Assembly: GCF_013520865.1 (NCBI RefSeq) | Contig: NZ_JACDXJ010000001.1 | Span: 186,001 to 250,000 of the forward strand | DNA length: 64,000 nt | Direction of reading: 5' to 3' | From: Microvirga mediterraneensis | GTDB taxonomy: Bacteria; Pseudomonadota; Alphaproteobacteria; Rhizobiales; Beijerinckiaceae | Shown: positions 19,824 through 59,088 of the stretch, piece after piece | Numbering within the stretch: position 1 is the first letter of the stretch | Layout of the letters: the number at the start of each line of letters is the position of its first letter | Notes under the pieces: generated by a model | Database searches by the model: none | What the model saw: the letters and a program-made list of their open reading frames with translations, nothing else | What the model was told of the DNA's origin: nothing | Program-made: the position numbers and the translations under genes

Positions 19824-19834
19824 CTTGCGCGAGG
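19824..19834. promoter_or_regulatory. Flagellar-regulon dyad CTTGYRCGARG upstream of the chemoreceptor
   Basis: The sequence CTTGCGCGAGG matches the shared dyad found before each leftward flagellar operon. It lies 68 bp before the chemoreceptor ATG, in the same orientation relative to the gene as the other copies. Confidence 0.6.
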
Positions 19835-19853
19835 CTTGCTCTCGGGTTGCATC

Positions 19854-19929
19854 CACTTGCGAGGAAGCGCCTCTTCTTCGCTTTGCCGCATTCTTGACGG
19901 TGAACCGGATCCGCTTCACCGAAAAATGC
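19854..19929. repeat. 76-bp palindromic repeat, copy A
   Basis: One of three related intergenic elements (others at 22568-22657 and 32485-32560). A CACTTGCGAGGAAGCGCCTCT segment is followed by GCATTCTTGACGGTGAACCGG and its pairing arm CGCTTCACCG with AAAAATGC, so the second half folds into a hairpin closed by GCATT and AATGC. The remaining gap (19757-20024) shows no gene. Confidence 0.65.
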
Positions 19930-20024
19930 CCCTAACCCTTTGGAGGTATACGGCCAAGTTTCGCCACCCGAGTGACGAATTCTTAAGCATACGCCCATAG
20001 TCCTGATGACACGCGGTTCTCAAC

Positions 20025-20621
20025 GTGGCGGTTTCCATGGGCGTTCGGTTCGACAAGGTTTTGGAGCAGGTTGCCAGGGCTGGAAATGCCAGGGAACAGG
20101 TCTCCACGGCCGAGCGGCGGCAACGCAAGGTCCAGCGCATCGAGGAATCCATCCGCGCGCGCGAGGCGGTCGGCGACCGCATCGTGATGTGCCTCGGCCT
20201 GGCCCTCACCCTGTCGGCCATCGGCCTGCCGGTCTATGCCCTGCATTTCAGCGAAAGCTATACCTATCTCACGAGCGCCGTGGCCGACACGACCATCGGC
20301 AAGGCCGTGCCACGCACGATCGACTTGAACCCCGCGACGACAGGCTCACTGGCGAAGAAGGATCTCGAACCGGCCGCAGGCCACAAGAGCGCCACGACCC
20401 CGAGCGTCAAGGGAGGCCCGCAGTTTCAACGCTACGTTCTCCATCGGGCCACGGGCGAGTCCGCCCTGATCGAAGGCCCCGACGGTATCTGGTGGGTCAC
20501 GCCGGGCATGACCCTGCCCGGCATCGGCCAGGTGATCTCCATCGAGCGCTCCGATGCCGGTTGGGTGGTTCTGACGACCGAGACCATGATCACGCAGTCA
20601 CCGGCACGGGCTTCGAGCTGA
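20025..20621 (+). CDS. Uncharacterised single-pass membrane protein
   Basis: A 198-residue protein I do not recognise. The GTG start is at 20025; an ATG at 20037 is possible. Residues 1-50 are charged and probably cytoplasmic, residues about 54-74 (VMCLGLALTLSAIGLPVYAL) form one membrane span, and the rest would be periplasmic. The C-terminal segment WWVTPGMTLPGIGQVISIERSDAGWVV suggests a small beta domain. There is no close neighbour in the same direction, and the region around it is repeat-rich. Confidence 0.6.
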   Translation: MAVSMGVRFDKVLEQVARAGNAREQVSTAERRQRKVQRIEESIRAREAVGDRIVMCLGLALTLSAIGLPVYALHFSESYTYLTSAVADTTIGKAVPRTIDLNPATTGSLAKKDLEPAAGHKSATTPSVKGGPQFQRYVLHRATGESALIEGPDGIWWVTPGMTLPGIGQVISIERSDAGWVVLTTETMITQSPARASS

Positions 20622-20685
20622 AGATTACGGGGCGCTCAAGCGGGCGCCGTCCCACACCCTGCTGACAACGAAAGCGACGTGGCCA

Positions 20686-20731
20686 AAGCATCGGACCCAA
20701 AAGCGGACATGCGCTTTTGGGTCCGATGCTT
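20686..20731. repeat. Perfect 20-bp hairpin
   Basis: Positions 20686-20705 are the exact reverse complement of 20712-20731, separated by the 6-nt loop GACATG. The arm contains CGGACCCAAAAGCG. The structure is longer and more perfect than most terminators and lacks a clean T-run on either strand. It is more likely a small mobile palindromic repeat, though it could still end transcription from the membrane-protein gene 64 bp upstream. Confidence 0.65.
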
Positions 20732-20740
20732 ATTCTTATG

Positions 20741-20831
20741 CTGGCGCATCGTCCGGCGCGGTTCCGGAGGGTCGCGTCGGCGACCGTTAAGGCCCGCCGG
20801 TGAAACCGGACCCTTTTTCCCGCAGGATGCG
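20741..20831. repeat. Repeat-like palindromic intergenic segment
   Basis: This stretch is bounded by GGCGCATC and GATGCGC, which are inverted, and contains small internal hairpins such as GGTCGC/GCGACC. It resembles the other GCGCATCGT-type palindromes in the window (for example 43682-43720). No coding signal is seen in 20622-20848. Confidence 0.35.
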
Positions 20832-20848
20832 CTCGAAAGACCCGTCGC

Positions 20849-21523
20849 CTACTTCGTCGCGGTCGCGACCGGCGCGGCCTGGTTTCCGAGCCAAACCCAA
20901 TTCACATTGTCCGAGCCTTCCCGCTTCACATAACGATAGCCTGTCTGCTGCCAGGGCAGGACGACGTTGCGCTTGTTGTCGAGGATGTAGTCGCCGCGAT
21001 CCGTCCGCGCCATGAGAACCGCGTGCCCTGCACCGAGTTCATCGATCACCACGGTCATGCGCAGGGCTCGCTGCGGCAGGCCGGCCTGCGTGAGACGGCG
21101 GCGTTTGAGCAGCTGGATGTCTTCGCAATCGCCCATGCCGTCATCCGGATAATCCCAGCGATCCGCGACACCCCAGTGATCCTGGTCGGTGACGGGCACG
21201 ATTTCCTTGTTCACCTGCTCGTTCACGTCGACGATCAGCTTCCACGCCGCCTGATCGAGAACGATCGTGTCGGGCTCCGAACGATTGGGCGCGCATTCCT
21301 GCGGCAGCTGCGTGCAGAACTCGATCCAGGCCGGCGTCGGCCCGGCGGCACCGACTGCAAAGAGCGTATCGCCGGACGCCCGTTTGGCGAATTGAGGGAA
21401 GTCGAGTGCCGATCCCGCTCCTGCTGTGGCGGACAGGACAAGGGCCGCGAGACCTGCTGGCGCGAAGAAGCGTTGAAAGCGTTTACTGCGCCGTCGTGAA
21501 GCTTTGAAAGTAATCCCGCACAT
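20849..21523 (-). CDS. Exported bacterial transglutaminase-like cysteine protease
   Basis: A 224-residue protein of the bacterial transglutaminase-like cysteine protease family (BTLCP). The ATG at 21523 is chosen because it gives a clean Sec signal peptide (about 1-39, cleavage near AGSA-LD); an in-frame start at 21586 would add 21 atypical residues. The candidate triad is Cys133 (GMGDCEDIQ), His167 (GAGHAVLM) and Asp182 (ILDNKRN). In other bacteria, family members (LapG type) cleave surface adhesins, but no LapD or adhesin gene is visible, so the substrate is unknown. Confidence 0.8.
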   Translation of the reverse strand: MCGITFKASRRRSKRFQRFFAPAGLAALVLSATAGAGSALDFPQFAKRASGDTLFAVGAAGPTPAWIEFCTQLPQECAPNRSEPDTIVLDQAAWKLIVDVNEQVNKEIVPVTDQDHWGVADRWDYPDDGMGDCEDIQLLKRRRLTQAGLPQRALRMTVVIDELGAGHAVLMARTDRGDYILDNKRNVVLPWQQTGYRYVKREGSDNVNWVWLGNQAAPVATATK

Positions 21524-22185
21524 GCCCCGCACCTGTTCAGTTTTATTATTTTCAATAAAGCTGTCAGCAGCGGATGCGCGGCGCAAGCGCGAACTTGCCG
21601 CAAGATCACGAACGACTCGGCACTGTTGACTTCAAGCAACAGAGCAAGCAATCGCCGCCCGCGACCTATCCAAACGAAGAGGAAAGATCAGGTCCGAGGT
21701 ACCGCCCATACAATCACGTCCATCTCAGCGGACGGCTCAGTCCCGAAATCGTTAAATGGCTCTCTTGGCGAACGTAGAGAAGACTCGCCGGAGGCTTCAC
21801 CGACGAGCATCGCTCCTCCATTCGGCGCGCATTCTCAAAGAGACTTGGTTTTGTTCACGACCGGCCCTGCGCCATGCTGCGACTTCTGGCCCAATGCCTT
21901 GTTTTCGCGGACGACATCATGAGGCGGATGACGGGCATTCCAATCAGCCCGACCAGGGAAGCTGCGACGACCGGCACCAGAACGATAGCCACGGATCTCT
22001 CCTCATCACTCGGAGGTACTCCTTCAATATGAGGCAGGAACCTTTCCCGAACCTGACCATCTCCGGCGCAGGTCCGTTACCCGCGGCCATTGGTTTACTA
22101 CGCTCTCAGGAAACGCTTCGTCCGGGCCGGGTCGTCGGTATAGTGCAGCCTGGAAACGAGTTTCGATTGGCCTTGGGAGATCGTC
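21524..22185. other. Long intergenic stretch, little coding signal
   Basis: About 660 bp of lower-GC DNA between the protease and a lipoprotein gene. Apart from one short leftward frame at 21855-21992, the open frames here are short and lack ribosome-binding sites or recognisable products. The part next to the protease (ATTATTTTCAATAAAGC, 21544-21560) is AT-rich and may hold its promoter. I see no repeats or RNA gene. Confidence 0.5.
21855..21992 (-). CDS. Possible 45-residue membrane protein
   Basis: A short leftward frame starting at GTG with AGGAGAG 4-5 nt before it. The product begins MAIVLVPVVAASLVGLIGMP, a single hydrophobic segment, followed by a basic tail (KTRHWARSRSM). Small proteins of this type are common in alphaproteobacteria, but one short frame with a close ribosome-binding site is weak evidence. 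Confidence 0.3.
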   Translation of the reverse strand: MAIVLVPVVAASLVGLIGMPVIRLMMSSAKTRHWARSRSMAQGRS

Positions 22186-22566
22186 TTGAGAACGCTTTTC
22201 GCGACACTTGCAGCTGCCCTCGGCGTCGGCGGCTGCGTGCCGGCCGTTCAGGAGCCCCTTGCCCTGTCCTGCTCGGATTATATCGGCAAGCCCATCTCGG
22301 CGCGCATCGCCGCCTGGGGACCGCCGCGAACCGTCTACCGGATCAGCCCAACCCAGGTCGGCTATATTTTCGAGAGCAGGCAGACAGCCTTCATCGGCGG
22401 CGAGCCCTATTACACGGTGAATTACATGATCGGCGCCGACAAGCACCACGCGCCGGTGCGCAAGGTGACGACGATCTGCAGCGGCCTCTTCATCGTGAAC
22501 GCGCCCAGCGACGCGCTCCCGGTCACGGAGCGGATCGTCGAGGACGTGATCTCGGTGAAAGGCTGA
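22186..22566 (+). CDS. Small putative lipoprotein
   Basis: A 126-residue protein with a TTG start preceded at 6 nt by GGGAGA. The N terminus is a lipoprotein signal with the lipobox VGGC, giving a mature Cys17. The mature part, SDYIGKPISARIAAWGPP followed by YIFESRQT, vaguely recalls small outer-membrane lipoproteins of the BamE/OmlA type, but I cannot assign it. A palindromic repeat follows immediately downstream. Confidence 0.6.
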   Translation: MRTLFATLAAALGVGGCVPAVQEPLALSCSDYIGKPISARIAAWGPPRTVYRISPTQVGYIFESRQTAFIGGEPYYTVNYMIGADKHHAPVRKVTTICSGLFIVNAPSDALPVTERIVEDVISVKG

Positions 22567-22567
22567 A

Positions 22568-22657: not shown

Positions 22658-22698
22658 AGCCCATCGTGCGCCCCCCTGGGGCCGCACGATGCACGCGA

Positions 22699-23484: not shown

Positions 23485-23522
23485 GGCTCACTCCTTCGGC
23501 TCGTAAGGCCGCGCACCGTGCA

Positions 23523-24083: not shown

Positions 24084-24107
24084 GGCTCAGCGTTCCGCGA
24101 GCGACCC

Positions 24108-24164: not shown

Positions 24165-24989
24165 TTACTGGAAGAGCTTCAGGATCATCTGGCTGTTCTG
24201 GTTCGCGATCGAGAGCGACTGAACGCCGAGCTGCTGCTGCGTCTGCAGAGCCTGCAGGCGGGTCGAAGCCTCGTTCATGTCGGCGTCGACCATCGAGCTC
24301 ACGCCGTTGGTCAGCGAGTTGGAGAGCGACTCCAGGAACTCCGACTGGGCGTCGATCTGGTTCTGCACGGCGCCGAGATCGGCGGCGTATTCACGAACGG
24401 CGGTCAGGCCCGTGTCCAGAGCCGCGTGCAGCGTCTCGGCATTGGCTTTCGACGCGATGGTGGTCGGAGCCGTCACGGCAGTCGTCAGGGTCGTCTTCAG
24501 GTCCTGCGAGGTGAGGTCGATCGTCGTGAAGGTCGCTCCGCCCCAGCCCGACACGATGTTCACACCGGCGGTTGCGCTGTTCAGGATGTTCACGCCGTTG
24601 AAGCTCGCACCGTCGATCAGGCCCGTCAGGGTCTTGGCGAGGCCTGCCAGCGCCTTGTTGACTTCGTTGTAGCCGCTCGTGCCATCGACGTCGCCAGCCT
24701 GCGTGGCCTGCTCCTTCATCTTGGTGAGCGTGTCGGCGATCTGCGTCAGGGCAGCCGTCGCGGTCTTCACCAGGGCGGAGTTTTCCTTCAGCTTGTCCTT
24801 GATGGTGCCGACAACGCTGTTCTCGGCCTTCATCTTGGTCGAAACCGACCAGTTGGTGGAGTTGTCGGCAGCGGTCGCGACCTTGAGACCCGTGGAGATC
24901 TGGCTCTGGGTCTTGCTCAGCGAACGCTGGGTGTTGCTCAGGTTCTGGAGAGCGGTGAGAGCGCTGGAGTTCGTGAGAATCGAAGACAT
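24165..24989 (-). CDS. fliC: Flagellin
   Basis: A 274-residue flagellin, short because the variable surface domain is almost absent. The N-terminal D0/D1 region has SSILTNSSALTALQNL and SKTQSQISTGLKV; the C-terminal D1/D0 region has STRLQALQTQQQLGVQSLSIANQ and ends SQMILKLFQ. AAGGAAGAAG precedes the ATG. Control by the FlaF/FlbT pair encoded downstream in the island is expected from other alphaproteobacteria. It is the only flagellin seen in the window. Confidence 0.95.
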   Translation of the reverse strand: MSSILTNSSALTALQNLSNTQRSLSKTQSQISTGLKVATAADNSTNWSVSTKMKAENSVVGTIKDKLKENSALVKTATAALTQIADTLTKMKEQATQAGDVDGTSGYNEVNKALAGLAKTLTGLIDGASFNGVNILNSATAGVNIVSGWGGATFTTIDLTSQDLKTTLTTAVTAPTTIASKANAETLHAALDTGLTAVREYAADLGAVQNQIDAQSEFLESLSNSLTNGVSSMVDADMNEASTRLQALQTQQQLGVQSLSIANQNSQMILKLFQ

Positions 24990-28564: not shown

Positions 28565-28620
28565 GTGGCTTCCTGTTTAGGGGCGCTGGTCGGCCGCCAT
28601 CCTCGTCATGTGAACTGGAT

Positions 28621-29118
28621 TCAGACCTTGCCGGAGAACGATGCGGGGGCCGGAGGGACACGGATGTCGGAGGAGCGCCCGGGTTCCTGCGCGTCGAGGA
28701 GCCGCTTTGCGATTCCGATGCCGCCCGCCTTCGAGATCTGCGCACCGATCTGTTCCGCCATCATGGATTTCCAGATGGAGCCTGCATTGCCCTTGCCATA
28801 GGTGTTTTCCGCATCCTTCGGCAGCATGGATTCGACGAAGGTCTGGAGGATGTAGGCTTCGAATTCCTGATGCGCCTTCTGCGTCCTGGCGGCGCTGGCC
28901 GACTCGGCATCGTTGCGAAGCGAGTTCCGCAGCGTGTAGATGTCGGCACCCGATGCCATCAGCGGCTGGCCGGCCATGGACTTCATGGCGTCGTCGAAGC
29001 TGGCGCCGTCCAACGCGGACGCGCCATCGAGAAGCTTTTGCGACGCGGCCTGATAGCGTGCGGGATCCGCCGCCCGGGCAACGTCGTTGATAATATCTGA
29101 GGGCGGGCTGATCGCCAT
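28621..29118 (-). CDS. flgJ: Rod-binding protein, FlgJ N-terminal type
   Basis: A 165-residue protein from the ATG at 29118; the open frame extends further upstream with no similarity. The core KAHQEFEAYILQTFVESMLPKD, then YGKGNAGSIWKSMMAEQIG, is the rod-capping domain of FlgJ. The C-terminal muramidase domain of enterobacterial FlgJ is missing, as usual in alphaproteobacteria. A separate lytic transglycosylase at 46106 may provide that activity. Confidence 0.82.
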   Translation of the reverse strand: MAISPPSDIINDVARAADPARYQAASQKLLDGASALDGASFDDAMKSMAGQPLMASGADIYTLRNSLRNDAESASAARTQKAHQEFEAYILQTFVESMLPKDAENTYGKGNAGSIWKSMMAEQIGAQISKAGGIGIAKRLLDAQEPGRSSDIRVPPAPASFSGKV

Positions 29119-29167
29119 CTCGCATCTCTCACGTTTCAGACTTGAGAGGAGGTTTAACCCGGCTAGC

Positions 29168-29566
29168 TTACGGGAAGCTTGCGCCTTCGCCTTTTGCGAG
29201 CAGCTCGATGATGGAAGCGAGATCCTTCTTCTCACTTTCCCGGCGGTCTTGCTCCTTGAGACCCGACAGCATCTTCTCCGCCCGCTTCGCCTGCATGGCC
29301 TTGTCGACGGTGACGGCCTTCTGCGCCACCTTGGCCTTGTCCACGACGCTCGCCTGGGACGCCAGTGCCTGCAGGCGCTTGGCCGCGACATCCACGAAGA
29401 GGCCGTGCAGCGTTTCGTGGTCGTTCATCGTCTGGATCAGCGTCTCCTGCGCGAGCTTGAGTTCGGATGCCTTCCGCTCGAGCTGAGCGAGTTTCAGCTC
29501 GGCCTCTTTCTGGAGGTGCTGCTGCATCTTCATGATGCGGTCGATCTTCCGAATCCTCTGTTTCAT
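29168..29566 (-). CDS. fliJ: FliJ-like export chaperone
   Basis: A 132-residue strongly coiled-coil, basic protein starting MKQRIRKIDRIMKMQQHLQ. Length, charge and two long heptad helices fit FliJ, the stalk-like escort protein of the FliI ATPase and FlhA. FliJ is poorly conserved, so the call also rests on its place directly after fliR (5-bp gap) and before flgJ. Confidence 0.7.
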   Translation of the reverse strand: MKQRIRKIDRIMKMQQHLQKEAELKLAQLERKASELKLAQETLIQTMNDHETLHGLFVDVAAKRLQALASQASVVDKAKVAQKAVTVDKAMQAKRAEKMLSGLKEQDRRESEKKDLASIIELLAKGEGASFP

Positions 29567-29571: not shown

Positions 29572-30327
29572 CTACCCGTCCCGCAGCCAGGTCGAGAACG
29601 CCTCCATGAAAAGGAGCACGTAGTCGCTCACGGCAAAGTAGGTGATCAGCAAGCCGCCGAGCATGATGAAAGGCGTCGCCAGGAAATAGACCGGGATCTG
29701 GGGCGTGAGCTTGTTGGTGAGCCCGACCGCCAGATTGACGATGACGGAATACAGGATGAAGGGGCTGCTGATCCTGAGCGCCAGCACGAAGGAAATGCCG
29801 ATCTGGTCGACCAGCTGCGTCAGGGACAGGTTCATGCCCAGTCCTTCTCCCACGGGCAGCCGCGAGTAGGAGGCGATGAGCCCTCGAAAGAACTCCCAAT
29901 GCAGGTCGGACATGAAGAGAACGGCCGTCGCCACCATCATGATGAAGGACGTGATCGGCGGAAGAGGCTCCGCCTCGTCGATCGGCGTTCCGGGCATGCC
30001 GCCGAGGCTTAAGGCCAACGCCACGGCGTTCAGCATGGTCTGGAGGGCAAGAAAATAGACGCGGCCCAGGAGACCGATCAGAAGTCCCGTCAGGAGTTCC
30101 TTGCCGACATAGAGGAGAACGGCCGCCGGAACCTGCGACGTGATGCCCGCCTGGACCTTCTCGATGAGCACGGGCGCCAGCGCCAGGCTGGTGGCCAGGC
30201 CGATGAAGAGCCGCACATGCATCGGGATCCGGTTGCTCGAGAAGCCCGGGGCGATCATCAGGCATCCGCCGATCCGGCAGAAGATCAGGAAGATCGCCAG
30301 CAGGATCTCGGGCGTGACTTGGTTCAC
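29572..30327 (-). CDS. fliR: Flagellar export-gate protein FliR
   Basis: A 251-residue inner-membrane protein with about six hydrophobic segments, part of the FliPQR gate. The start is the GTG at 30327, overlapping the flhA stop as GTGA; the much longer open frame upstream is a shadow of flh[22 protein letters not shown] at the N terminus and [25 protein letters not shown] near the end are typical of FliR. Confidence 0.93.
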
Positions 30328-32399
30328 GAGATCGTCCCGAGCGAGTTGACCTCGACGCCGCGGGCGATTTCCAGATGCGACAGGACAGGCAGGGACGAGA
30401 ACATGCGCTCGATGATCATGCGCACATAGGGGCGGGCATCCGGCGCGGTGACCACGGCAAAGGTCTGGACCTGTCCCATGCGCGTCTTGATGGCATCCGA
30501 TGCCTCGGCGCCGAACTGTTCCACGAGGCGGGGATCGATGTCGAATTCGACCACGTCGCCTTTCGCGTCCCGCTTCAGGCTCTGATGGAACGCGATATCC
30601 CACTTGTTCCCCAGCCTCAGCACATTGAGGGCCCCACCCTCCGCAAGGTCGCCGCAGATCTGCTGGGCGATGCGGACCCGCACGTGCTCCACCAGCTGCT
30701 CGGCGCGCCGCGCATGGGGGGCGATCTCGGCGATCGCCTCGAGGATCAGGCTCAGGTTGCGAATGGACACTCTCTCGGCCAGCAGGAGCTTCAGAACGGA
30801 TTGAAGGCCGGAATAGGAAATCTGCGAGGGGCAGATGTCGTCGAGCAGGCGCTTGTACTCGGAATCGAGGCCGTCCAGGAGATTGCGGACATCCTTGTAG
30901 GACAGGAGCTGAGGCAGGTTGTTTCGGATCACTTCGCTCAGATGCGTGAGGAGGACCGATGCTCCATCCACCGCCTGGAAGCCCTGCCGCTTGATCTCGC
31001 TCATGTAGACGTCCGACACCCACAGGGCCTTCATGCCGAAGGCCGGCTCGCGCACCTCGTCGCCGGGAACATCGGGGACCGGCCCGTCGCCCAGCACCAC
31101 GAGGAGATCGCCGGGGCGGATTTCCTGCGTCGCCACGACGGTTCCGTGGATCTTGATCTGGTAGCTCTTCGGCGGGATCATCAGGCTGTCGGAGAGCTTC
31201 ACGTCCGGCAGGACGAAGCCGTAATCCTGGGCGAACTTCTTGCGCATCTTGCCGACGCGATGCGCCAGGTCCCCATGCGAGGTCGCCAGGTAGGATGCCA
31301 GATGCTTGCCGAGGCACAGCTCGATCTCGGCAAGCTTCAGGGTTTCCTTGACCGATTCGCGCGACTCCAGAAGATTCTTCTGCTGTTCCTGGGCCAGCTT
31401 GGCCTGGGCCTTCGCGGCCTCGTCGGCTCTTTGCTTCGGGATCGAATAGGCGATGAAGCTCATGCAGCCGCCGAGCACCAGGAACGGGATCATCGGCAGG
31501 CCGGGCACGATGGAAAAGACGAACATCAGGGCGGCGGCCACCATGAGGGCCCGCGGATAGGCGCCGAGCTGCCCGAGCACGGCCTGCTGGGCCTGCCCCC
31601 TCGTTCCGCCCTTCGAGACCAGGAGGCCGGCGGCCAACGAGACGACGAGAGCCGGGATCTGGCTCACCAACCCGTCGCCGACCGAGAGCTGGACGAAGAC
31701 ATCCGCCGCCTTGGACAGGGGCATGCCGTGACGCGTGACGCCGATGACGATGCCGCCGAAGATGTTGACGGCAATCGTGATCAGGCTCGCGACGGCTTCG
31801 CCGCGGACGAATTTCGAGGCACCGTCCATGGATCCGAAGAAGGCGCTTTCCTCTTCGAGCTCGCGACGCCTCTTCTGGGCCTCCTTCTCGTCGATCAGGC
31901 CCGCGGACAGGTCCGCATCGATGGCCATCTGCTTGCCGGGAATGGCATCGAGCGTGAAGCGTGCGCCGACCTCGGCGATACGGGTCGCGCCCTTGGTGAT
32001 GACGAGGAAGTTGACCGTGATCAGGATGATGAAGACGACGATGCCGATGACGAAATCGCCGCTCATCACGAACTGGGAGAAGCCGCTGATCACATGGCCG
32101 GCCGCATCGACTCCCTTATGGCCATCGGACAGAATGAGGCGGGTCGACGCGATGCTCAGGGCGAGTCGCAACAAAGTCGCGATAAGAAGGACCGTGGGAA
32201 AGGCCGAGAACTCGAGAGGCTTCTGGATCCAGAGCGCCACCATCAGGATCAGGACGGACAGCGCAACCGAAAAGGCAAGCCCCATGTCGATCGCCATCGG
32301 CGGAATGGGGAGAAAGAGAATGGCAAGGATGCCGACCACGGCGCCGGCGAATGCCAGATCCCTGCCGCGCCCCTGGGCTGTAACTTCAGTTGCTTCCAT
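30324..32399 (-). CDS. flhA: Flagellar export-gate protein FlhA
   Basis: A 691-residue protein that forms the nonameric ring of the export gate. The N-terminal half (about 1-330) has eight membrane spans and the family signature [28 protein letters not shown]; the C-terminal half is the cytoplasmic substrate-docking domain. It leads the operon flhA-fliR-fliJ-flgJ-flgN-FliL-like-cheY-cheB-cheR. The flagellar dyad lies 53 bp upstream, at 32452-32462. Confidence 0.96.
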
Positions 32400-32451
32400 G
32401 TGCCTGCCAGCTCAACGGATGAACGATGAGACTGACACATGAACCATGAAG

Positions 32452-32462
32452 CTTGCGCGAGG
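32452..32462. promoter_or_regulatory. Flagellar-regulon dyad upstream of flhA
   Basis: CTTGCGCGAGG, 53 bp before the flhA ATG. Reading towards flhA it is followed by AAGCTTCATGGTT, similar to AAGCGTCATGGTG after the flgE copy, so conservation extends beyond the 11-bp core for these two operons. Confidence 0.65.
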
Positions 32463-32484
32463 GTCGCCGGTCGAGATCTATGCC

Positions 32485-36604: not shown

Positions 36605-37804
36605 TTACCGCTTCAGGTTCATCAGAACATCGAGCAGCTCGGATCCGGTCTGGAAGACCTTCGAGTTCGCCGTATAGCTGGTCTGGGCCTCGATCATCGC
36701 CGTCAGCTCGGTGCCGATATCGACGTTCGATCCTTCCAATGCCCCTGACGCGATGGACCCGAAGCCGGACATCTCCGGGAAGCCGACCTGGTAGCCGCCG
36801 GATTGAGCCGTCGTCTCGTAGACGTTGCCGGCGCGGGGGCTCAGATTGTCCGGGCTCGAAACATTGGCGAGCGGGATCCGATAGGCTCCGACGCGCGTCC
36901 CGTCCTCGTAGACGGCATAGACCGTTCCGTCGGATGCGAACTCGACGTCCTTTACCGCCGACGGCGCATTGCCGTTGGCCTCGCCGGTGACGTTGTATTC
37001 GCCAGCGAGCTGCGTCATGCCCGCCATGTCAAGAGCGAAAGGCTCGCCGCCGGGAATGCCGAAGTTCAGCACGGACGGGCCGGTCAATTGGCCGTCGGCA
37101 TCGAAGGTCAGGGTCATCGACGTCGTTCCGGTCAGCGGATCGGCACTGGAGCCGTTGGCAACGCTGATGCTCCATTGCGTATCGCTGATCTTCGACAATG
37201 CGATATCGATTTTGATCGGATTGCCGACCTTGTCATAGACCTGAAGCGAAGATTGCTTGCTGACGGCGGGCAGTGCGACGACCGGGGCCCCATCCGGCAG
37301 GTTGCCCTTGAAGGTTCCTTTCGTAGACCCGCTGGCCTGCATGGCGAACGACGACATGTTGACCGGCTCGACGCCGTCGAGGCTGTTCAGGGAGGGGTTC
37401 ACCGCCCCTGACCCCAGCTTGTATCCCATGAGGGTAAAGCCGTAGGCATTGACGAGGTTGCCCGTCCGACCGTCCTTGACGAAATTGCCCGCGCGGGTCA
37501 GGTAGGGAGATCCGCCCGGATCCGTCACCACGAAAAATCCGTTGCCGGAGATCGCAAGGTCCGACGGAGACGTCGTGTAGGCGATCGGCCCCTGATCGGC
37601 GATCGTGTAGCGGACGCGGCTCGTGACGGAGCCGGAATTGTAGTTCCCTTCGCTCGACGGCAGGATCAGAGACGAGAACTCTGTCGAGGCGCGCTTATAT
37701 CCAGTGGTGCTCGAGTTCTGGATGTTCTCAGCGACGGTACCCAACTTGTTCGACTGAGCGTTCATGCCGGAAACGCCACTACGAAGAACGCCATAAAGAC
37801 TCAT
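36605..37804 (-). CDS. flgE: Flagellar hook protein FlgE
   Basis: A 399-residue hook subunit. Start LRSGVSGMNAQSNKLGTVAENIQN is the rod/hook family motif, and the C-terminal GTELTAMIEAQTSYTANSKVFQT is the matching helix. It leads the operon flgE-flgK-flgL-flaF-flbT-flgD-fliQ, with the flagellar dyad 43 bp upstream at 37847-37857. Confidence 0.95.
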   Translation of the reverse strand: MSLYGVLRSGVSGMNAQSNKLGTVAENIQNSSTTGYKRASTEFSSLILPSSEGNYNSGSVTSRVRYTIADQGPIAYTTSPSDLAISGNGFFVVTDPGGSPYLTRAGNFVKDGRTGNLVNAYGFTLMGYKLGSGAVNPSLNSLDGVEPVNMSSFAMQASGSTKGTFKGNLPDGAPVVALPAVSKQSSLQVYDKVGNPIKIDIALSKISDTQWSISVANGSSADPLTGTTSMTLTFDADGQLTGPSVLNFGIPGGEPFALDMAGMTQLAGEYNVTGEANGNAPSAVKDVEFASDGTVYAVYEDGTRVGAYRIPLANVSSPDNLSPRAGNVYETTAQSGGYQVGFPEMSGFGSIASGALEGSNVDIGTELTAMIEAQTSYTANSKVFQTGSELLDVLMNLKR

Positions 37805-37846
37805 CTGAAGCTCCTACGGTTTCAAACTGGACCTAACACCATGACG

Positions 37847-37857
37847 CTTGTGCGAAG
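37847..37857. promoter_or_regulatory. Flagellar-regulon dyad upstream of flgE
   Basis: CTTGTGCGAAG (arms CTT and AAG around a YR centre), 43 bp before the flgE start. It lies in the 96-bp gap between flgE and fliI. Confidence 0.65.
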
Positions 37858-37900
37858 CTGTGTTCCATTCCAGGGATGATGATGCGAGACGTGAACGACT

Positions 37901-39231: not shown

Positions 39232-39957
39232 TCAGGTGCTGGGACCGAGAGTCCGGATGGCATCCATGAAGGTCGATTCGCTCTCCTGGATGGTCGTCGC
39301 GGCGCTATCGAAATTCCGTTGGACCGCAATCATCTTCGTCATCTCCAGGACGGGATTGACATTCGATCCTTCGCTGAAACCCTGCTTGATCCCGGTGGAG
39401 TTGAAGTCCTGGACGACTTCGCCCGGAATGCTGGACCTGACGCCGGAGTTTCCGAAACGACTGAGCCGGCTGTCGTTGCGCAGGTTGAAGAGACCGATCG
39501 CTCCGACCTGGTTAGTGCCCTGCGTGATCGTTCCGTCATGGCCGATGGTCGGGGCGCCTCCCATCGGATCCAGGGCGATGGGGGAGCCGCCGGCGTCCAG
39601 GACCCGGTAGCCCTCGACGGTCAGGAGATCGCCGTTCTCATTCATCTTGAAGCGGCCGTCGCGAGTATAGACGGCCCCGCCGGGACCGTCGAACGCGAAC
39701 CAGGCTTCGCCCTGAATGGCGACATCGAGCGGGTTGTCGGTCTTCACGACAGGGCCGGTCCGCCGGGACACGTAGTTATGTCCGGAAGACGCGAAGGACA
39801 CGTTCTCCTTGGCCGCGAGCGAAAGAATTTCCTCGAACTTCACCTCGTCGGCCCTGAAGCCGCCCGTGTTCATATTGGCAACGTTGTTCGCAATCGTGTT
39901 GAGGCGCTTTTCCATGGCCACCTGGGCGGACAATGCGACATAGAGCGAGGATTGCAT
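39232..39957 (-). CDS. flgF: Flagellar proximal rod protein FlgF
   Basis: A 241-residue rod protein with the N-terminal AMEKRLNTIANNVANMNTGGFRA motif and C-terminal NPVLEMTKMIAVQRNFDSAATTI. It is distinguished from FlgG at 57097 by length and neighbours. It is divergent from motA, and the shared intergenic region holds the flagellar dyad at 40061-40071. Confidence 0.9.
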   Translation of the reverse strand: MQSSLYVALSAQVAMEKRLNTIANNVANMNTGGFRADEVKFEEILSLAAKENVSFASSGHNYVSRRTGPVVKTDNPLDVAIQGEAWFAFDGPGGAVYTRDGRFKMNENGDLLTVEGYRVLDAGGSPIALDPMGGAPTIGHDGTITQGTNQVGAIGLFNLRNDSRLSRFGNSGVRSSIPGEVVQDFNSTGIKQGFSEGSNVNPVLEMTKMIAVQRNFDSAATTIQESESTFMDAIRTLGPST

Positions 39958-40060
39958 TGAGGAACTCCGGCCTTTTCTCTCATGAGGGCGGCGCTGGCCG
40001 ACCCTGATGGCGCGGCTTCCATCCGCCGCATGAACCTAGCCCTGGGGGTAGCCGAACAGC

Positions 40061-40071
40061 CTTGCACGAGG
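40061..40071. promoter_or_regulatory. Flagellar-regulon dyad between flgF and motA
   Basis: CTTGCACGAGG inside AGCCTTGCACGAGGCT, whose outer arms AGCCT and AGGCT pair perfectly. It lies 104 bp before flgF and 87 bp before motA, so one site could serve both operons. Confidence 0.65.
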
Positions 40072-40157
40072 CTTGCCCCTCCGTTTCCAGCTTCGCGCAA
40101 GCCTCCGTGATTAAGACATCCTCAGCAGGTTGGACTTTCGCAAAAGGGACCACAACG

Positions 40158-41039
40158 TTGGGCGTTTTGATCGGATTGGCAGTCGCCATTGGCTCGCTCG
40201 TGAGCGGCTATGTCGCCATGGGCGGTCATCTGGCCGTGATATGGCAGCCTTGGGAATACGTGATCATCTGCGGCATCGCGATCGGCACGTTCATCATCGC
40301 GAACCCGATGCCGCTGGTGAAGGACACCGGTCGGGCCGCCCGCGAGGCGATTTCCGGCACCGTTCCGAAGAGGGACCATTACCTCTCGATCCTGGGCCTT
40401 CTCTACGCGCTCATGCGGGAGCTGAAGAACAAGCCCCGCAACGAGGTGGAAGGTCATATCGACCAGCCGGAGGAATCGGAGATCTTCAAAGCCTTCCCGA
40501 GCGTTCTGAAGGACAAGGACCTCACCCTCTTCATCTGCGACTATGCGCGCCTGATCATCATCGGCAACGCTCGTCCCCATGAGATCGAAGCCCTCATGGA
40601 GGAAGAGATCGCGACCCTCAAGCGCGACCGGACAAAACCCTATTACTCCATCAACACCGTGTCCGAAGCCCTCCCCGCCCTCGGCATCGTGGCGGCCGTC
40701 CTGGGCATCGTGAAGGCTCTCGGTGCCATCGATCAGTCGCCCACCATCCTGGGCGGCCTGATTGCCTCGGCCCTCGTCGGAACCTTCGGCGGCATCTTCA
40801 TCTCCTATGCGTTCCTGTCGCCGCTCGCGAACAAGGTGAAGGCCACCCGGGAGAAGCAGACCCGCGTCTATGTCATCGTCAAGCAGGCACTCATCGCCTA
40901 TATGAACGGCGCGCTGCCCCAGATTGCCGTGGAGCATGGCCGCAAGGGCATCTCCGTGGATTACCGCCCGACCATCGATGAAGTTGAAGCCGCTACGACC
41001 ACGGGCGGCCGCAGCGAAGACCTGAAAGAGGCCGCGTGA
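40158..41039 (+). CDS. motA: Flagellar motor stator protein MotA
   Basis: A 293-residue stator subunit with four membrane spans. I choose the TTG at 40158 (product begins GVLIGLAVAIGSLV), preceded by AAAGGGA, because the longer frame adds 32 residues with no similarity. The cytoplasmic loop contains LYALMRELKNKPRNEVEGHI, and SEALPALGIVAAVLGIV carries a conserved proline. Stop and fliM start overlap (ATGA). Its partner motB is about 9 kb away in another operon. Confidence 0.93.
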   Translation: MGVLIGLAVAIGSLVSGYVAMGGHLAVIWQPWEYVIICGIAIGTFIIANPMPLVKDTGRAAREAISGTVPKRDHYLSILGLLYALMRELKNKPRNEVEGHIDQPEESEIFKAFPSVLKDKDLTLFICDYARLIIIGNARPHEIEALMEEEIATLKRDRTKPYYSINTVSEALPALGIVAAVLGIVKALGAIDQSPTILGGLIASALVGTFGGIFISYAFLSPLANKVKATREKQTRVYVIVKQALIAYMNGALPQIAVEHGRKGISVDYRPTIDEVEAATTTGGRSEDLKEAA

Positions 41040-50556: not shown

Positions 50557-51204
50557 TCAGCCTTCCAAGGCCTGGAACAGTCGGGCCGACCAGGCGCTCA
50601 ATTGCGTTTGAGCAAGTGTATCCTGCGCCGTCGCGCTCACCTCGACATGCTCGCTTGGCGTAACCTCGATCAGCCTCCCGGAATTCCCGAGACTTGCCTG
50701 CAGCGACACGAGCAGATCTTCCGGCCCGGAGACATTCAGAAGGCGTGCGTCATTGCCGGACAGCAATGTCGTGAGGACCTCTTTGAACTCTGCGAGCGCC
50801 TGCTGGCGATAGGCCTCGGCAAGGAATGGCCTGAGGATGTTGGCGACCTTCTCCGAGAGGTCGCCCTCGATGCGACCGACCGCCGTTGAGATCTGATCCG
50901 AGAGTTGCTGCGCCTGCTGCTCGACCCAGATCGCACGCTGCTCGTTCATGTCCTCCAAGTGGCGGATTTTCTCGGCCGCCAGGACGTCCTCAAGCTCCTT
51001 GCGCGCGATCTCTCTTTCCTCGGCCCTCACGCGCGCCTCGATCGAGGCCGCGATCTCCGCTTGTCGATCGACGATAGGCGGCTGCGGCGGCTCCGGGCTT
51101 GGCTCAGACGCGATCTTGACGGAGCGAAGAAGGCTGATCCCCGAAGGAGCTCCCGCGGCCGGGCTCGAAAAATCGGTCAGGAGGCTGGCGAGGGTCCCGG
51201 CCAT
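50557..51204 (-). CDS. fliH: FliH-like export apparatus protein
   Basis: A 215-residue protein from the ATG at 51204, which overlaps the fliF stop by one base (TAATG). A long helix (about 50-115, IEARVRAEEREIARKELEDVLA) and a C-terminal domain (LAEAYRQQALAEFKEVLTTLL) match FliH in shape. FliH is weakly conserved; the position between fliF and motB and the lack of another fliH support the call. It would regulate FliI. Confidence 0.65.
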   Translation of the reverse strand: MAGTLASLLTDFSSPAAGAPSGISLLRSVKIASEPSPEPPQPPIVDRQAEIAASIEARVRAEEREIARKELEDVLAAEKIRHLEDMNEQRAIWVEQQAQQLSDQISTAVGRIEGDLSEKVANILRPFLAEAYRQQALAEFKEVLTTLLSGNDARLLNVSGPEDLLVSLQASLGNSGRLIEVTPSEHVEVSATAQDTLAQTQLSAWSARLFQALEG

Positions 51205-52841
51205 TACGCGGCCTCCCGGCCGAGCCACTGCTTCAGAACGGCGGCGGCCTGCTCCTCACTCAGCTCGATGATCTGCTCCAGCTTGCGCTGCGGCGTCCTC
51301 GGCATCTCGATCAGGTTCTGCTCGTCCAGCTCGGACGCCACCTGCAGGGCAGTCTCCCTGCTGGATTCGAGAGCCTCTTCAGCCTCGGCCGCAGCCAAGG
51401 CGGCCGCCTGTTCGCGCTGGAGCTCAAGCTCGGCCTGATGGCGGGCCATGAGCATGCGGACGGCGGGACGCAGGCCGAACCAGATCATCATGGCGCACAG
51501 GGCGAGGATCGTCAGGGCGTTCACGACCGTGCCGAACTGGCGCATGAGAATCTCGGTCAGAGACGGGCCCTGAACCGGCTGAAGCATGCCGCCGTCGTCG
51601 ACGAAGCTGACGGCGGCCACCTTGATCTGATCACCGCGATTCTTGCTGAAGCCTGCGGCCGAGGATACGAGCTGCTCGATCTCGGCGACCTTGGCGTCCA
51701 TCTCGGCCGGAGTCGCATTCTCGCCGAGAAGCGACGTGATTCGGGACCTGTTCACCAGGACGGCAACGGACAGGTTCTTGATCTGGTAGCCGTCGCTGAT
51801 CGTCTGGATCGTCTTCGACGAAATCTCGTAGTTCGTCAGCTCTTCGCGCCGCTGGTTGTCCTCGCTCGAGCTGTCGCCCGATTCGCTCCGGACGTTCTCG
51901 TCCGGCAGGTTCTGCTGGACCGTGGTAGGCTTCTGGCCGCTCTTGTTCTGCGAGACCTCGGTTTCCTTGATCGTCCGGGTCGAACGCTCGACCTTCGATT
52001 CAGGATTGAAGATCGTCTCGTTGGTGCTGACCTTGTCCGTGCTCAGGCGAGCGGCCACGCTGACCTCGAAGTTGCCGGTGCCGAGATAGGGCGCGAGCGT
52101 GCGGCGCACATTGTCCTGGATTTCGAGGCCGACCGTCTTCTCGAGGCGAGCCATCTTGCCCGTCGAGGCGTTGGCGGCATCGTCGCCGGACATCAGGAGC
52201 GTCCCGTCCGTGTTCATGACGGTGACCTTGTCGACAGCCATGCCGGGAATGGCGGCCGCGACGAGGTGCCGGATGGCCTGCGCGGACGAGGCATCGTCAG
52301 ACGGCACCGTGCGAATGACGACGGAGGCCGAGGGCGGCTGCTGCTCGCGGCGGAACGAGCCGCGATCCGGAAGGACGATGTGGACACGCGCCGCCTTGAT
52401 GCCCTTCATGCCCTGGATGGTCCGGGCGAGCTCGCCTTCGAGGGCCCGCACCTTGGTGACTTCCTGCATGAAGGACGTGAGGCCCAGGGAGCCGAGATCG
52501 TTGAAGAGCTCGTAGCCGGATTTCGTGCTGTGCGGCAGCCCCTTCTCGGCCAGCAGCATGCGGGCCTGGGCCGTATTGCCGTAGCTGACGAGGAGAGCCG
52601 TTCCATCGGTGCTCACATCGAAGGGGATGCCGGCATCCTTCAGGACCGCTCCCATCCGCCCGACGTCCTCGCGGTCGAGCCCCGTATAGAGCATCTCCTG
52701 CGCCGGCCGGCTGAGATAGTAGGTGCCGATGCCGACGGACAGGAAGACGGCGAGGCCGATCGCCGCCAAGGCAGCCAGGCGACGGGCGCCAAGCTGCATC
52801 AAACTACTCCACAATCTTTCGGCGTGCTGACGACCAGGCAT
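51204..52841 (-). CDS. fliF: Flagellar MS-ring protein FliF
   Basis: A 545-residue protein with two membrane spans (about 22-44 and 433-455) around the periplasmic ring-building motifs (LYTGLDREDVGRMGAVLKDAGIPF and RALEGELARTIQGMKGIKAARVHI). The cytoplasmic tail binds FliG. A start at 52799 has a better ribosome-binding site (GGAG) but would remove LWSSL-type residues often kept in the family. It leads the operon fliF-fliH-motB-motC-fliK-transglycosylase, with the dyad 53 bp upstream. Confidence 0.95.
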   Translation of the reverse strand: MPGRQHAERLWSSLMQLGARRLAALAAIGLAVFLSVGIGTYYLSRPAQEMLYTGLDREDVGRMGAVLKDAGIPFDVSTDGTALLVSYGNTAQARMLLAEKGLPHSTKSGYELFNDLGSLGLTSFMQEVTKVRALEGELARTIQGMKGIKAARVHIVLPDRGSFRREQQPPSASVVIRTVPSDDASSAQAIRHLVAAAIPGMAVDKVTVMNTDGTLLMSGDDAANASTGKMARLEKTVGLEIQDNVRRTLAPYLGTGNFEVSVAARLSTDKVSTNETIFNPESKVERSTRTIKETEVSQNKSGQKPTTVQQNLPDENVRSESGDSSSEDNQRREELTNYEISSKTIQTISDGYQIKNLSVAVLVNRSRITSLLGENATPAEMDAKVAEIEQLVSSAAGFSKNRGDQIKVAAVSFVDDGGMLQPVQGPSLTEILMRQFGTVVNALTILALCAMMIWFGLRPAVRMLMARHQAELELQREQAAALAAAEAEEALESSRETALQVASELDEQNLIEMPRTPQRKLEQIIELSEEQAAAVLKQWLGREAA

Positions 52842-52893
52842 AGAGAATCTCGGTACTGGTAAGAGGTGTCGAGATCACTTTTGCGTCGTCAAC

Positions 52894-52904
52894 CTTGTGC
52901 GAAG
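52894..52904. promoter_or_regulatory. Flagellar-regulon dyad upstream of fliF
   Basis: CTTGTGCGAAG within AACCTTGTGCGAAGGTT, where AACCTT and AAGGTT pair perfectly. It lies 53 bp before the fliF start, in the 117-bp gap behind fliP. Confidence 0.65.
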
Positions 52905-52958
52905 GTTGCTGCCTCTCCGCCGATCATCCATTTTCCTGCTTTGCAGGATTTGGGTCAG

Positions 52959-55514: not shown

Positions 55515-56611
55515 TGGATCACCAGTTCCGCTTGAAGTGCCCCGGCCGTCTTGACGGCCTGGAGAATGGCGATGACGTCGGACGGTTTGAGGCCCATCTG
55601 GTTGAGTCCCTTGACGAGGGTCTGGAGGTCGGCTCCGCGAACGATGGCGAGCGGCACCCTCTCCTCCGCGGCTGTGATCTGAGTGCGCGGCACGACCACG
55701 GTCTGGCCCATGGAGAACGGATCGGGTTGAGAGACTTCAGGGGTTTCCGTCACGCGGATCGTCAAGGCTCCATGGGTGATCGCAACCGTGGAGATCTGCA
55801 CGTTCTTTCCGATCACGACCGTCCCGGTCCGCTGGTCCACGACGATCCTGGCCGGCGTATCCGGCCTGATCTCGAGATCTCCCAACTCGGCGATGAAACG
55901 GGTCGCCGCCACATTCTTCGGCTTCTGCAGGAGAACGGTGCGAAAATCGCGCGGAGACGCCACGCGAACGCCGTAACGCTGCTGCGCATAAAGGTTGATT
56001 GCATCCGTGATCAGCGTCGCGGTCTTGTAGTCGGGGTTCTTGAGTTCGAAGGCCAGCGGTCCCATGGCATTGAAGCCGCCTTGGACCTCCCGCTCGATCA
56101 GGGCGCCGTTCGGAATACGCCCAGCGGTCGCGACGCCCGAAGTCAGCGTCTCGGCCTGCCCCTGGGCGGAGAATCCCGAAACGGCGATCGCACCTTGCGC
56201 GACGGCATAAACCTGCCCATCGCCGCCCTGTAGGGCGGTGAGCATCAGGGTGCCGCCCTTCAGGGAGGTGGCATCGCCCATGGACGTAACCGTCACGTCG
56301 ATGCGCGATCCGGATCCGACGAAAGCTGGAAGGTCCGCCGTAACGATGACGGCCGCGACGTTGCGGGTCCGCAGGTTGATGTCGCGGACATTGACGCCCA
56401 TGCGGTCGAGCATCGATTGGAGCGACTGCTCGGTAAACTGGGAGTTGCGAAGCGTATCGCCCGTTCCCTGGAGGCCCATGACGAGGCCATACCCGATGAG
56501 CTGGTTGTCGCGCACACCTTGAACGGAGGCCACATCCTTGATGCGTGTCGCAGCGTGGCTCTGGAGCGAGACCAGAACGGCGAGGAGAAAAAGAATCGCA
56601 CGGAGCATCAT
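55511..56611 (-). CDS. flgI: Flagellar P-ring protein FlgI
   Basis: A 366-residue exported protein (signal about 1-20). RIKDVASVQGVRDNQLIGYGLVMGLQGTGD is the family start, and LVKGLNQMGLKPSDVIAILQAVKTAGAL is the end. It forms the periplasmic bushing. Its ATG overlaps the flgA stop by one base (TGATG). Confidence 0.97.
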   Translation of the reverse strand: MMLRAILFLLAVLVSLQSHAATRIKDVASVQGVRDNQLIGYGLVMGLQGTGDTLRNSQFTEQSLQSMLDRMGVNVRDINLRTRNVAAVIVTADLPAFVGSGSRIDVTVTSMGDATSLKGGTLMLTALQGGDGQVYAVAQGAIAVSGFSAQGQAETLTSGVATAGRIPNGALIEREVQGGFNAMGPLAFELKNPDYKTATLITDAINLYAQQRYGVRVASPRDFRTVLLQKPKNVAATRFIAELGDLEIRPDTPARIVVDQRTGTVVIGKNVQISTVAITHGALTIRVTETPEVSQPDPFSMGQTVVVPRTQITAAEERVPLAIVRGADLQTLVKGLNQMGLKPSDVIAILQAVKTAGALQAELVIQ

Positions 56612-57072
56612 CAGAATCCGATCCGAACCCGACCGTCGGGCTGAACCCGGCCAGTGATGATCCGGCCGCTGTCGACGTTCTTGACCTGGATGGTTTCACC
56701 CAGAGTACCGGACTGAAGCGGGATACCGATCCCCATGATCGACAATCCGCCTTCCTCGAACACGATCTGCGTCTGCGTACCCCGTGTCACGAGCTTCGGG
56801 TCGTCGACGGCATTCATCGGAATCGGCTCCCCGGGCAGAAGGGTCCGACGAGCCATCTTGCCGGTGAGAACCCGCGGCGACTCGATGACGGCCGTCCGAT
56901 AGCGATAGTTCTCCGGAAACGCGCGATCCTTGAGCATAGACTCGTTGATCGTGTCGCCGGGATAAATGGTCACCGAAGGAACCGGGAGGATTCGCTCTTC
57001 AGCCATGGCGGCCCAGGGGGCCGCCAGCGCCATGACGCTCGCCGCGAGAGCAATATGGACGAGATGCTTCAT
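56611..57072 (-). CDS. flgA: P-ring assembly chaperone FlgA
   Basis: A 153-residue exported protein (signal about 1-23). It is short: essentially only the SAF and C-terminal domain (ESPRVLTGKMARRTLLPGEPIPMNAV, then GETIQVKNVDSGRIITGRV). It helps FlgI form the P-ring. It lies 24 bp after flgG and directly before flgI. Confidence 0.9.
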   Translation of the reverse strand: MKHLVHIALAASVMALAAPWAAMAEERILPVPSVTIYPGDTINESMLKDRAFPENYRYRTAVIESPRVLTGKMARRTLLPGEPIPMNAVDDPKLVTRGTQTQIVFEEGGLSIMGIGIPLQSGTLGETIQVKNVDSGRIITGRVQPDGRVRIGF

Positions 57073-57096
57073 GAATCTTTCACCCGGCTTTCGCCC

Positions 57097-57885
57097 TTAG
57101 CGGATGCCCTTGGACACGGTTCCGGCCATATCGTCGGCAGCCTGGATGACCTTCGAATTCATCTCGAAGGCACGCTGCGCCGAGATCAGGTTCGTGATCT
57201 CCTTGATCGGATCGACGTTGGAAGCCTCGAGATAACCCTGATGGATCTTCCCGAATCCCGGATCGGACGGCATGCCCACCACCGGGGCGCCGGATGCGAG
57301 CGTTTCGCGATAGTAGTTGCTGCCGATCGGCTCCAGGCCCGCATCGTTGGCGAAGTTCGCAAGCGAAAGCTGACCGAGATTCTGCGGCTGGGCTTGCCCG
57401 TCGATCTTCGCAAACACCTCGCCGGATTCGTTGATCGTCACGTCGAGAGTGTTCGCCGGTACGATGATCGGCGGGTTGAGCGTGTAGCCGTCGAGGGTGA
57501 CGAGCTGCCCGTTGCCGTCCTTATTGAACGATCCCGCACGGGTGTAGACGATTTCGCCGCTGGGAGCATTGACCTGGAACCAGCCGCGGCCGTTCAGGGC
57601 AAGGTCGAACTGGTTCGACGTATTCGTCAGCGATCCCTGACGATGCAGGTTGCGGATCGCCGCCGTTCGGACGCCGAGCCCCAGCATCGCTCCTTCCGGA
57701 ACCGGGCTCGATCCGGCCTGGTTGGGAATGGCCTGCGACCGCTCGGCTTGATAGAGCAGGTCCGTGAACTCGGCCCGAGCCCCTTTAAAGGCGGTGGTGT
57801 TCACGTTCGAGATGTTGTTGGCGATGACTTCGACGTTAAGCTGCTGGGCATTCATGCCCGTGGCGGCGATCGCGAGCGCTCTCAT
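57097..57885 (-). CDS. flgG: Flagellar distal rod protein FlgG
   Basis: A 262-residue rod protein. [40 protein letters not shown] is the classic FlgG start, and [30 protein letters not shown] is the end. It is the fourth gene of the flgB operon. Confidence 0.96.
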
Positions 57886-57895
57886 TTCAGTCCCC

Positions 57896-58225
57896 TTAAA
57901 TCGTCATCCGGGAGATTTCTTGGTAGGCCGCGACGACCTTGTCGCGGATCGCGATGGCCGTCTGAAGCGTCTGCTCAGCCGACATCACCGCCTCGACGAC
58001 CTGCTGCACCGAGGCCTTGCCTTGGATCCCGGCGATCGACGCCGCTTCACCCGCCTTCATGGTGTCGATGGCGGAATTGGCTACCTGAGCCATCATGTCG
58101 CCGAAGCTTGCCTGGGATGCCCCGGCCACGGCTCCTGCGGCCGGCGTCCCGCCGAAGGTGGGAATGGCTGCGACCGCCGATGGGCGATCGATCATTGAGG
58201 AGATCGAGGAAACTGCGCTGACCAT
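57896..58225 (-). CDS. fliE: MS-ring/rod adaptor FliE
   Basis: A 109-residue protein with [58 protein letters not shown], the FliE core, ending YQEISRMTI. It joins the rod to the MS ring. It starts one base after the flgC stop. Confidence 0.94.
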
Positions 58226-58226
58226 A

Positions 58227-58646
58227 TCAGCCTCTCATGAGATCGATTGTTGCAGTGATCATGGCTCTGGCCTGCTTCATCATCTGCAGGTTCGCCTGGT
58301 AGGATCGATTGGCTTCGCGCATGTCCGCCATTTCGATCAGCGTGTTGACGTTCGGCTTCTTGACCATGCCGTTCTCATCCGCGGCCGGATTGCCGGGATC
58401 GTACTCGAGCGGGAAAGCCGAATCGTCCTGCCCGATATCCTTGACGGTCACCGAAGCTGCGCCGAGTGTCCGGTCGAGCTCGGATTTGAAGGTGATCGTC
58501 TTGCGCGTGTAGGGATCGGAACCCGGCGTGCGCCCCGTCGATTGGGCATTCGCGATGTTCTCCGAGATGACCCGGAGACGAGACGATTGGGCCTCCAGGC
58601 CCGAGCTCGATAATTTGCTGGATGCAACCAAGGGGTCGATCATCAT
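58227..58646 (-). CDS. flgC: Flagellar proximal rod protein FlgC
   Basis: A 139-residue rod protein with [22 protein letters not shown] at the start and [25 protein letters not shown] at the end. It overlaps flgB by 4 bp. Confidence 0.95.
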
Positions 58647-59029
58647 GAAGTCCTTACGCTTGACATCAGCATCCGGTGGAATGACTTGACGATGCTTGTA
58701 TTCAACGAATGCTGCCGGTTGACCTCACCAGCCTTGATGAGCTCCTGCTCGAGGCTGACGGAATTCTTGGAATAGACCGTGTCCCAGCTGTCCGACTTCT
58801 TGACCTTGCTCGCTTCGGCTTTTGACGGGGTGAACCCGATATGGCTGGCGTTTGTCGCAGCCATGGCCAACTTGGTTTTGTCCATAACGTCCGCGAACGG
58901 CTCGACATCCCTGGCCCGATAGCCCGGTGTGTTGGCGTTGGCGACGTTTCCGGAAATCGTCGTTTGGCGGGCGGCGAGCCATTGAGCCTGTCGCGATGCC
59001 AGATCGAACAGATAGACAGGTGCCGTCAC
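58643..59029 (-). CDS. flgB: Flagellar proximal rod protein FlgB
   Basis: A 128-residue rod protein from the GTG at 59029 (product begins [21 protein letters not shown]); GGAGA lies about 10 bp upstream. A longer frame to 59101 has no similarity and would cover the regulatory sites. It contains [23 protein letters not shown]. It leads the operon flgB-flgC-fliE-flgG-flgA-flgI-motE-flgH-fliL-fliP. Confidence 0.9.
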
Positions 59030-59053
59030 AGGGTGGTCTCCAGGCGAATATGG

Positions 59054-59068
59054 TAAAGAGGCATTTAA
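59054..59068. promoter_or_regulatory. CtrA-like binding box upstream of flgB
   Basis: TAAA, seven bases, TTAA followed by CC: one mismatch from TTAA-N7-TTAA. It lies 25 bp before the flgB GTG and about 10 bp from the dyad, suggesting joint control of this early flagellar operon. Confidence 0.45.
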
Positions 59069-59077
59069 CCCGCCAAC

Positions 59078-59088
59078 CTTGCACGAGG
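59078..59088. promoter_or_regulatory. Flagellar-regulon dyad upstream of flgB
   Basis: CTTGCACGAGG in the context AACCTTGCACGAGGCT, 49 bp before the flgB start. It is the same core as the sites before fliF, flgE, flgF, flhA and the chemoreceptor. Confidence 0.65.

Follow-up and report, generated by a model that had tools for sequence, protein, structure and literature searches.

Flagellar operons and one chemoreceptor gene in a 64,000-nucleotide stretch of the Microvirga mediterraneensis genome (contig NZ_JACDXJ010000001.1, positions 186,001 to 250,000; hereafter the window) are preceded by a shared box that is real and very probably functional. Among named genomes, FliG finds its closest matches in Microvirga, with up to 99% identity. 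The conserved unit of the box is a direct repeat, RCMAG-N6-RCAAG, with an 11-bp period, which occupies the place of a -35 element and is followed 10 nt downstream by a TAnnnT -10 hexamer. We consider it very likely that this is a sigma70-dependent class II flagellar promoter box of pho-box-like build, with a predicted reader in the FtcR/Rem/LafR family of regulators. The regulator family is already known; the box, as a -35 direct repeat common to much of the order Rhizobiales, is apparently the new part. We did not find it described in the literature searched, the scope of which did not extend to the primary papers on Rem and LafR (Mongiardini 2017), where it may be in print.

The original prediction was of an 11-bp dyad, CTTGYRCGARG, ahead of every leftward flagellar operon and a chemoreceptor. 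The exact motif is indeed present at all six positions (6 of 6 in a scan of the window), and the first genes behind these copies are those for a methyl-accepting chemotaxis protein (MCP), flhA, flgE, flgF, fliF and flgB, as proposed. One copy had been assigned jointly to flgF and motA; it precedes flgF, and a separate seventh exact copy (40091-40101, minus strand), which had been overlooked, faces motA and precedes the rightward motA-fliM-fliN-fliG-flhB operon. In gene orientation the core reads CYTCGYRCAAG, with 42 bases between core and start codon at flgE, 48 at flgB (GTG start), 52 at both flhA and fliF, 67 at the MCP gene and 103 at flgF. The word "every" was too strong: no box at a score of at least 10 was found at the flagellin unit (24165-24989) or the cheR/cheB units in a matrix scan of the window, and a variant at 29164 leads another leftward unit.

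Exact and one-mismatch copies of the 11-mer together number 23 in the window, where 10.7 are expected, and none of 100 shuffles reached this count. Across the whole genome there are 40 exact copies, compared with 38 of a reversed-pattern control, so the 11-mer by itself shows no genome-wide excess. Seven of the 40 fall within a 39.3-kb stretch in which 0.29 would be expected (Poisson p ~3e-8, for a stretch picked after the fact). Extended by three upstream positions belonging to the flanking half-site (VASCYYCRYRCAAG), the motif occurs 12 times in 5.35 Mb, including the 7 flagellar and MCP sites, and the reversed control has 7; the longer form is not found equally often in the rest of the genome. 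A regulon outside the flagella was considered and set aside: the number of the five other VASCYYCRYRCAAG copies does not exceed the control, and none has both A at +12 and T at +16. For the boxes listed below, scores come from a matrix trained on Microvirga sites alone, and conservation is given either as matrix scores or as matches to at least 10 of the 11 core positions.

19821..19839, minus strand: MCP box (GCAAGCCTCGCGCAAGCCA), leading the chemoreceptor gene (18086-19756, minus strand); score at least 14 in 8 of 9 Microvirga loci with the gene.
22039..22057, minus strand: degenerate box with CAAG changed to AAAG, ahead of a short leftward open reading frame (ORF); score 10.8.
29164..29182, minus strand: variant box (GCAAGCTTCCCGTAAGCTA), leading an ORF of the flagellar cluster (28577-29125); score 16.1; found in 10 of 10 Microvirga loci.
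32449..32467, minus strand: flhA box, leading flhA (30324-32399, minus strand); score at least 14 in 10 of 10 Microvirga loci.
37844..37862, minus strand: flgE box, leading flgE-flgK-flgL-flbT (flgE 36605-37804, minus strand); core in 34 of 34 Microvirga loci, exact in 24.
40058..40076, minus strand: flgF box, leading flgF-fliI (flgF 39232-39957, minus strand); core in 26 of 34 Microvirga loci, exact in 10.
40086..40104, plus strand: motA box, back to back with the flgF box and leading motA-fliM-fliN-fliG-flhB (motA probably starts at the TTG at 40158); core in 33 of 34 Microvirga loci, exact in 25.
52891..52909, minus strand: fliF box, leading fliF-motB-motC-fliK (fliF 51204-52841, minus strand); core in 25 of 25 Microvirga loci, exact in 21.
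59075..59093, minus strand: flgB box, leading flgB-flgC-fliE-flgG-flgA-flgI-flgH-fliL (probable flgB start GTG at 59029); score at least 14 in 9 of 9 Microvirga loci with the gene.

The core matches were counted in 34 Microvirga loci, or 25 for fliF where contigs end; several of the numbered Microvirga genomes are the same as named loci, and the sets are not independent. Among the loci scored with the matrix, one (L363) contains none of the scored genes and another (L352) ends before the MCP gene. The range of distances from core to gene is narrow for fliF, flgE and motA (the last measured as far as the codon that follows the probable TTG, and hence 3 too long) and wide for flgF, at 93-126. 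The degenerate site at 22039..22057 appears to have decayed in this strain; similarly placed sites are intact, scoring 15.9-20.8, in 7 of 9 relatives with the MCP region. Genes resembling FixL and FixJ (59320-62746, with FixJ at 61988-62746) adjoin the flgB operon in divergent orientation, and a link between oxygen and motility is possible.

The weighted alignment of Microvirga sites gives the consensus RGCMAGCYTCGCGCAAGSYT. In 72 promoters from outside Microvirga, identity between the two half-sites is 0.69 at an offset of 11 bp and 0.00-0.40 at other offsets, a repeat that is partly built in because the matrix used for selection contains both halves. The sites had been described as a shared dyad, and some copies do have long palindromic arms (AACCTT/AAGGTT at fliF), while CAAG-NTT is itself partly symmetric. 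The arms differ among copies, however, and what persists is the direct repeat: over the same 72 sites the best dyad of five pairs is 0.56 complementary, as against 0.66 for the best 5-bp direct repeat, at 11 bp. Since the box is also used in a single orientation, we rejected a palindromic operator, which we regard as scarcely credible.

Three columns beyond the matrix define the downstream element in these promoters: T occurs in 49% at +11, A in 97% at +12 and T in 82% at +16. Because +12 and +16 lie outside the matrix, a sigma70-type -10 placed exactly 10 nt past CAAG was not fitted by the search. A simple scan for a sigma70 -35/-10 pair around fliF found none. A sigma54 promoter was also considered and rejected, as the promoter profile gives TAnnnT and lacks a -24/-12 pair. 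The constant spacing to the -10 and the single orientation would also suit a motif that is no activator site but the -35 element recognised by an alternative or flagellar sigma factor. This is very unlikely: the information extends over ~19 bp with an 11-bp repeat, exceeding what we take to be the size of a sigma -35 element, and the -10 is of the sigma70 type.

The box was then scored across the order at a threshold of 10. Upstream of fliF in 55 other genomes with the same type of FliF, which is separated by a wide gap in E-value, it was found in 41, compared with 1 of 55 on the reverse strand; 42 reach p<0.01 when set against their own shuffles. It also occurs in 13 of 16 regions upstream of flgB (reverse strand, 1) and in 20 of 37 upstream of flgE (reverse strand, 0), a set that includes 12 rows at no more than 40% identity, mostly other rod proteins. 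Fourteen of 20 additional flgE regions carry it, again with none on the reverse strand. Few rows were available for motA (3 of 4) and flhA (3 of 5), and most of the 35 flgF rows are other rod proteins. When the box was required together with the spaced -10 (A and T) over whole regions at a threshold of 12, there were 83 matches, in 39 of the 55 regions, compared with 1.7 in dinucleotide resamples. The box is not absent in relatives: it lies at the same promoters in Microvirga and in Azorhizobium, whose named loci match the core exactly at flgE and with one mismatch at flgB and motA.

The flagellar systems of the other FliF type provide a control. No box was found upstream of fliF in any of 45 such loci from genomes without FtcR (reverse strand, 1), which slightly favours FtcR as the reader of the box. 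The second flagellar system of genomes with two systems likewise has none at 19 promoters (12 fliF, 7 flgE). At a score of 14 the density of boxes in control loci is 6.7 per Mb, compared with 107.8 per Mb. The proposal that a flagellar master regulator has its operator at these sites is therefore well supported, with position and orientation kept across the order and the box missing at the other flagellar type.

That regulator had been called unnamed, which it very probably is not. The genome has 15 genes of the OmpR type, one of which (G000:C1:256743-257426, 228 amino acids) lies ~11.7 kb from flgB, 6.7 kb beyond the window end, and 0.56 kb upstream of a cheA-led chemotaxis unit. Its product matches Trans_reg_C above the cut-off (53.6 bits) and Response_reg below it (20.7 bits against 30.2). 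From the look of its sequence, together with its build, place and co-occurrence, we take it to be a probable member of the FtcR/Rem/LafR family; we call it FtcR below. In all 46 sequences compared, Q, E or R stands in place of the phospho-accepting aspartate and R in place of the second acidic residue, and the recognition-helix region is almost unchanged across 35 other genomes. Of 199 genomes in the order, 62 have FtcR at E <= 1e-30: all 56 that carry this FliF type and 6 of the other 143 (Fisher p 4e-43, uncorrected for kinship). Within Microvirga it occurs in 20 of 21 FliF-positive genomes (as contig-edge fragments in G001, G005 and G012) and in 0 of 4 that are FliF-negative. Several Microvirga genomes (G003, G009, G011, G017, G020 and G021) have a second FtcR-like gene, with ~55% identity, on other contigs. 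A 15-mer match at 256685, downstream of ftcR, scored below 12 and was left uncounted. Unnamed ORFs of the flagellar cluster were scanned for a DNA-binding domain and none was found, in a scan that covered part of the window ORFs.

In the proposed mechanism, the half-sites (R)CMAG and (R)CAAG, head to tail and 11 bp apart, would span ~-38 to -23 relative to the predicted start site, and the -10 hexamer begins 10 nt past the second. A dimer of the orphan OmpR/PhoB-family protein FtcR (Rem, LafR) would sit head to tail on the two half-sites and bring in sigma70 RNA polymerase, substituting for the -35 contact. In this way FtcR would jointly activate the genes for basal body, hook, export and motor and that for one chemoreceptor. 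As the receiver has no phosphorylation site, control is likely to act through the amount of FtcR and not through its phosphorylation.

The nearest known geometry is that of the pho box, with half-site CTGTCAT and an A/T-rich spacer. PhoB is described as binding a 22-bp site made up of two direct repeats which, in Escherichia coli, usually lies near a sigma70 -10 and replaces the -35 (PMC4971064). The geometry of the flagellar box is the same, but its half-site (CMAG/CAAG) and G+C-rich spacer differ, and the FtcR-like regulator has no phosphorylation site. The spacer consensus is CYTCGC, and the repeat units lack the A/T-rich 4-bp part that each unit of a pho box has. The Microvirga protein resembles FtcR of Brucella, Rem of Sinorhizobium, LafR of Bradyrhizobium and ActR of Azorhizobium in its OmpR-type build with a degenerate receiver, its chemotaxis-gene neighbours and its co-occurrence with the flagellar type. 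LafR is reported to work without phosphorylation (PMC8429497). Azorhizobium that has lost its FtcR-like ActR is reported to lack flagella and to have lower levels of eight flagellar transcripts (PMC8639532); ActR controls homologues of genes led by the box in Microvirga, a further likeness between the two systems.

Alternatively, the reader of the box could be some other regulator whose inheritance is tied to this flagellar type, such as a LuxR-type VisNR or a novel protein, with FtcR acting indirectly. Co-occurrence cannot separate a reader from a passenger, and Rem of Sinorhizobium is itself placed under VisNR in a review (PMC8429497). The same review lists A. caulinodans and B. diazoefficiens as having rem homologues and lacking visNR, yet the box is present at Azorhizobium promoters. 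A protein of the OmpR/PhoB type would, moreover, use just such a layout, a direct repeat of 11-bp period lying 10 nt ahead of a -10, and we judge a different reader unlikely. None of the candidates originally put forward (CtrA, VisNR-like and FlbD-like regulators) is the best one.

The CtrA box is TTAA-N7-TTAA. It shares a direct repeat of 11-bp period with the flagellar box and differs in its half-site; it is absent from these sites, and CtrA was rejected as their reader, although a protein that we take to be CtrA-like is present in the genome. Upstream of ftcR (L165:13428-13730, minus strand), two elements are conserved among 10 aligned Microvirga loci, the inverted repeat GTTAA...TTAACC and a stretch reading TACGTATTG. 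With half-sites of the TTAA type, ftcR itself may, we presume, be controlled by CtrA.

Besides the built-in part of the repeat, several observations weigh against FtcR as the reader of the box. We infer its binding only from the co-occurrence of the box with FtcR, which could be co-inherited with the flagellar cluster without reading the box. Six genomes have FtcR and lack this FliF type, and no FtcR was found in G024, a FliF-positive Microvirga genome. Fourteen of the 55 fliF promoters score below 10, and 13 of the 55 regions have no box with a spaced -10 even at a threshold of 8. Five of the low-scoring fliF promoters belong to the genomes examined of one genus, g58, which have FtcR with an unchanged recognition helix. 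Of the eight boxes of the window, six have A at +12 and two (MCP and flgE) have it at +13, and T at +16 is found only at flgE. Finally, a 2022 study seeking FtcR targets in Brucella reported an 8-mer motif, TGTGGGCA, in 118 of 363 peaks from chromatin immunoprecipitation (ChIP), with an electrophoretic mobility shift assay (PMC9456535). This motif is very unlike the box and was found in 0 of 113 upstream regions (fliF, 0 of 60, five of which belong to the other FliF type; flgE, 0 of 37; flgB, 0 of 16), a set that does not include a named Brucella genome. It may reflect other ChIP peaks, or Brucella FtcR may have a different mode.

In the g58 genomes (G082, G113, G160, G180 and G199), the flgE promoter retains CMAG and CAAG at 11 bp with a different spacer, scoring 6.3-8.2, and fliF has no box.

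On balance we think it probable that RCMAG-N6-RCAAG-N10-TAnnnT, read by a phosphorylation-blind FtcR/Rem/LafR protein, governs the class II genes in flagellar systems of this type across the order, and that the Brucella ChIP motif is not the flagellar site of FtcR. FtcR, Rem, LafR and ActR are needed for flagella, yet their recognition site is poorly defined. With a defined box, the regulon could be predicted for many genomes of the order, and the conflict with TGTGGGCA becomes testable. At the level of the promoter, the box tells apart the two flagellar systems of genomes that have both. If the reading is true, an OmpR-type regulator with a dead receiver would retain the classical promoter geometry of PhoB.

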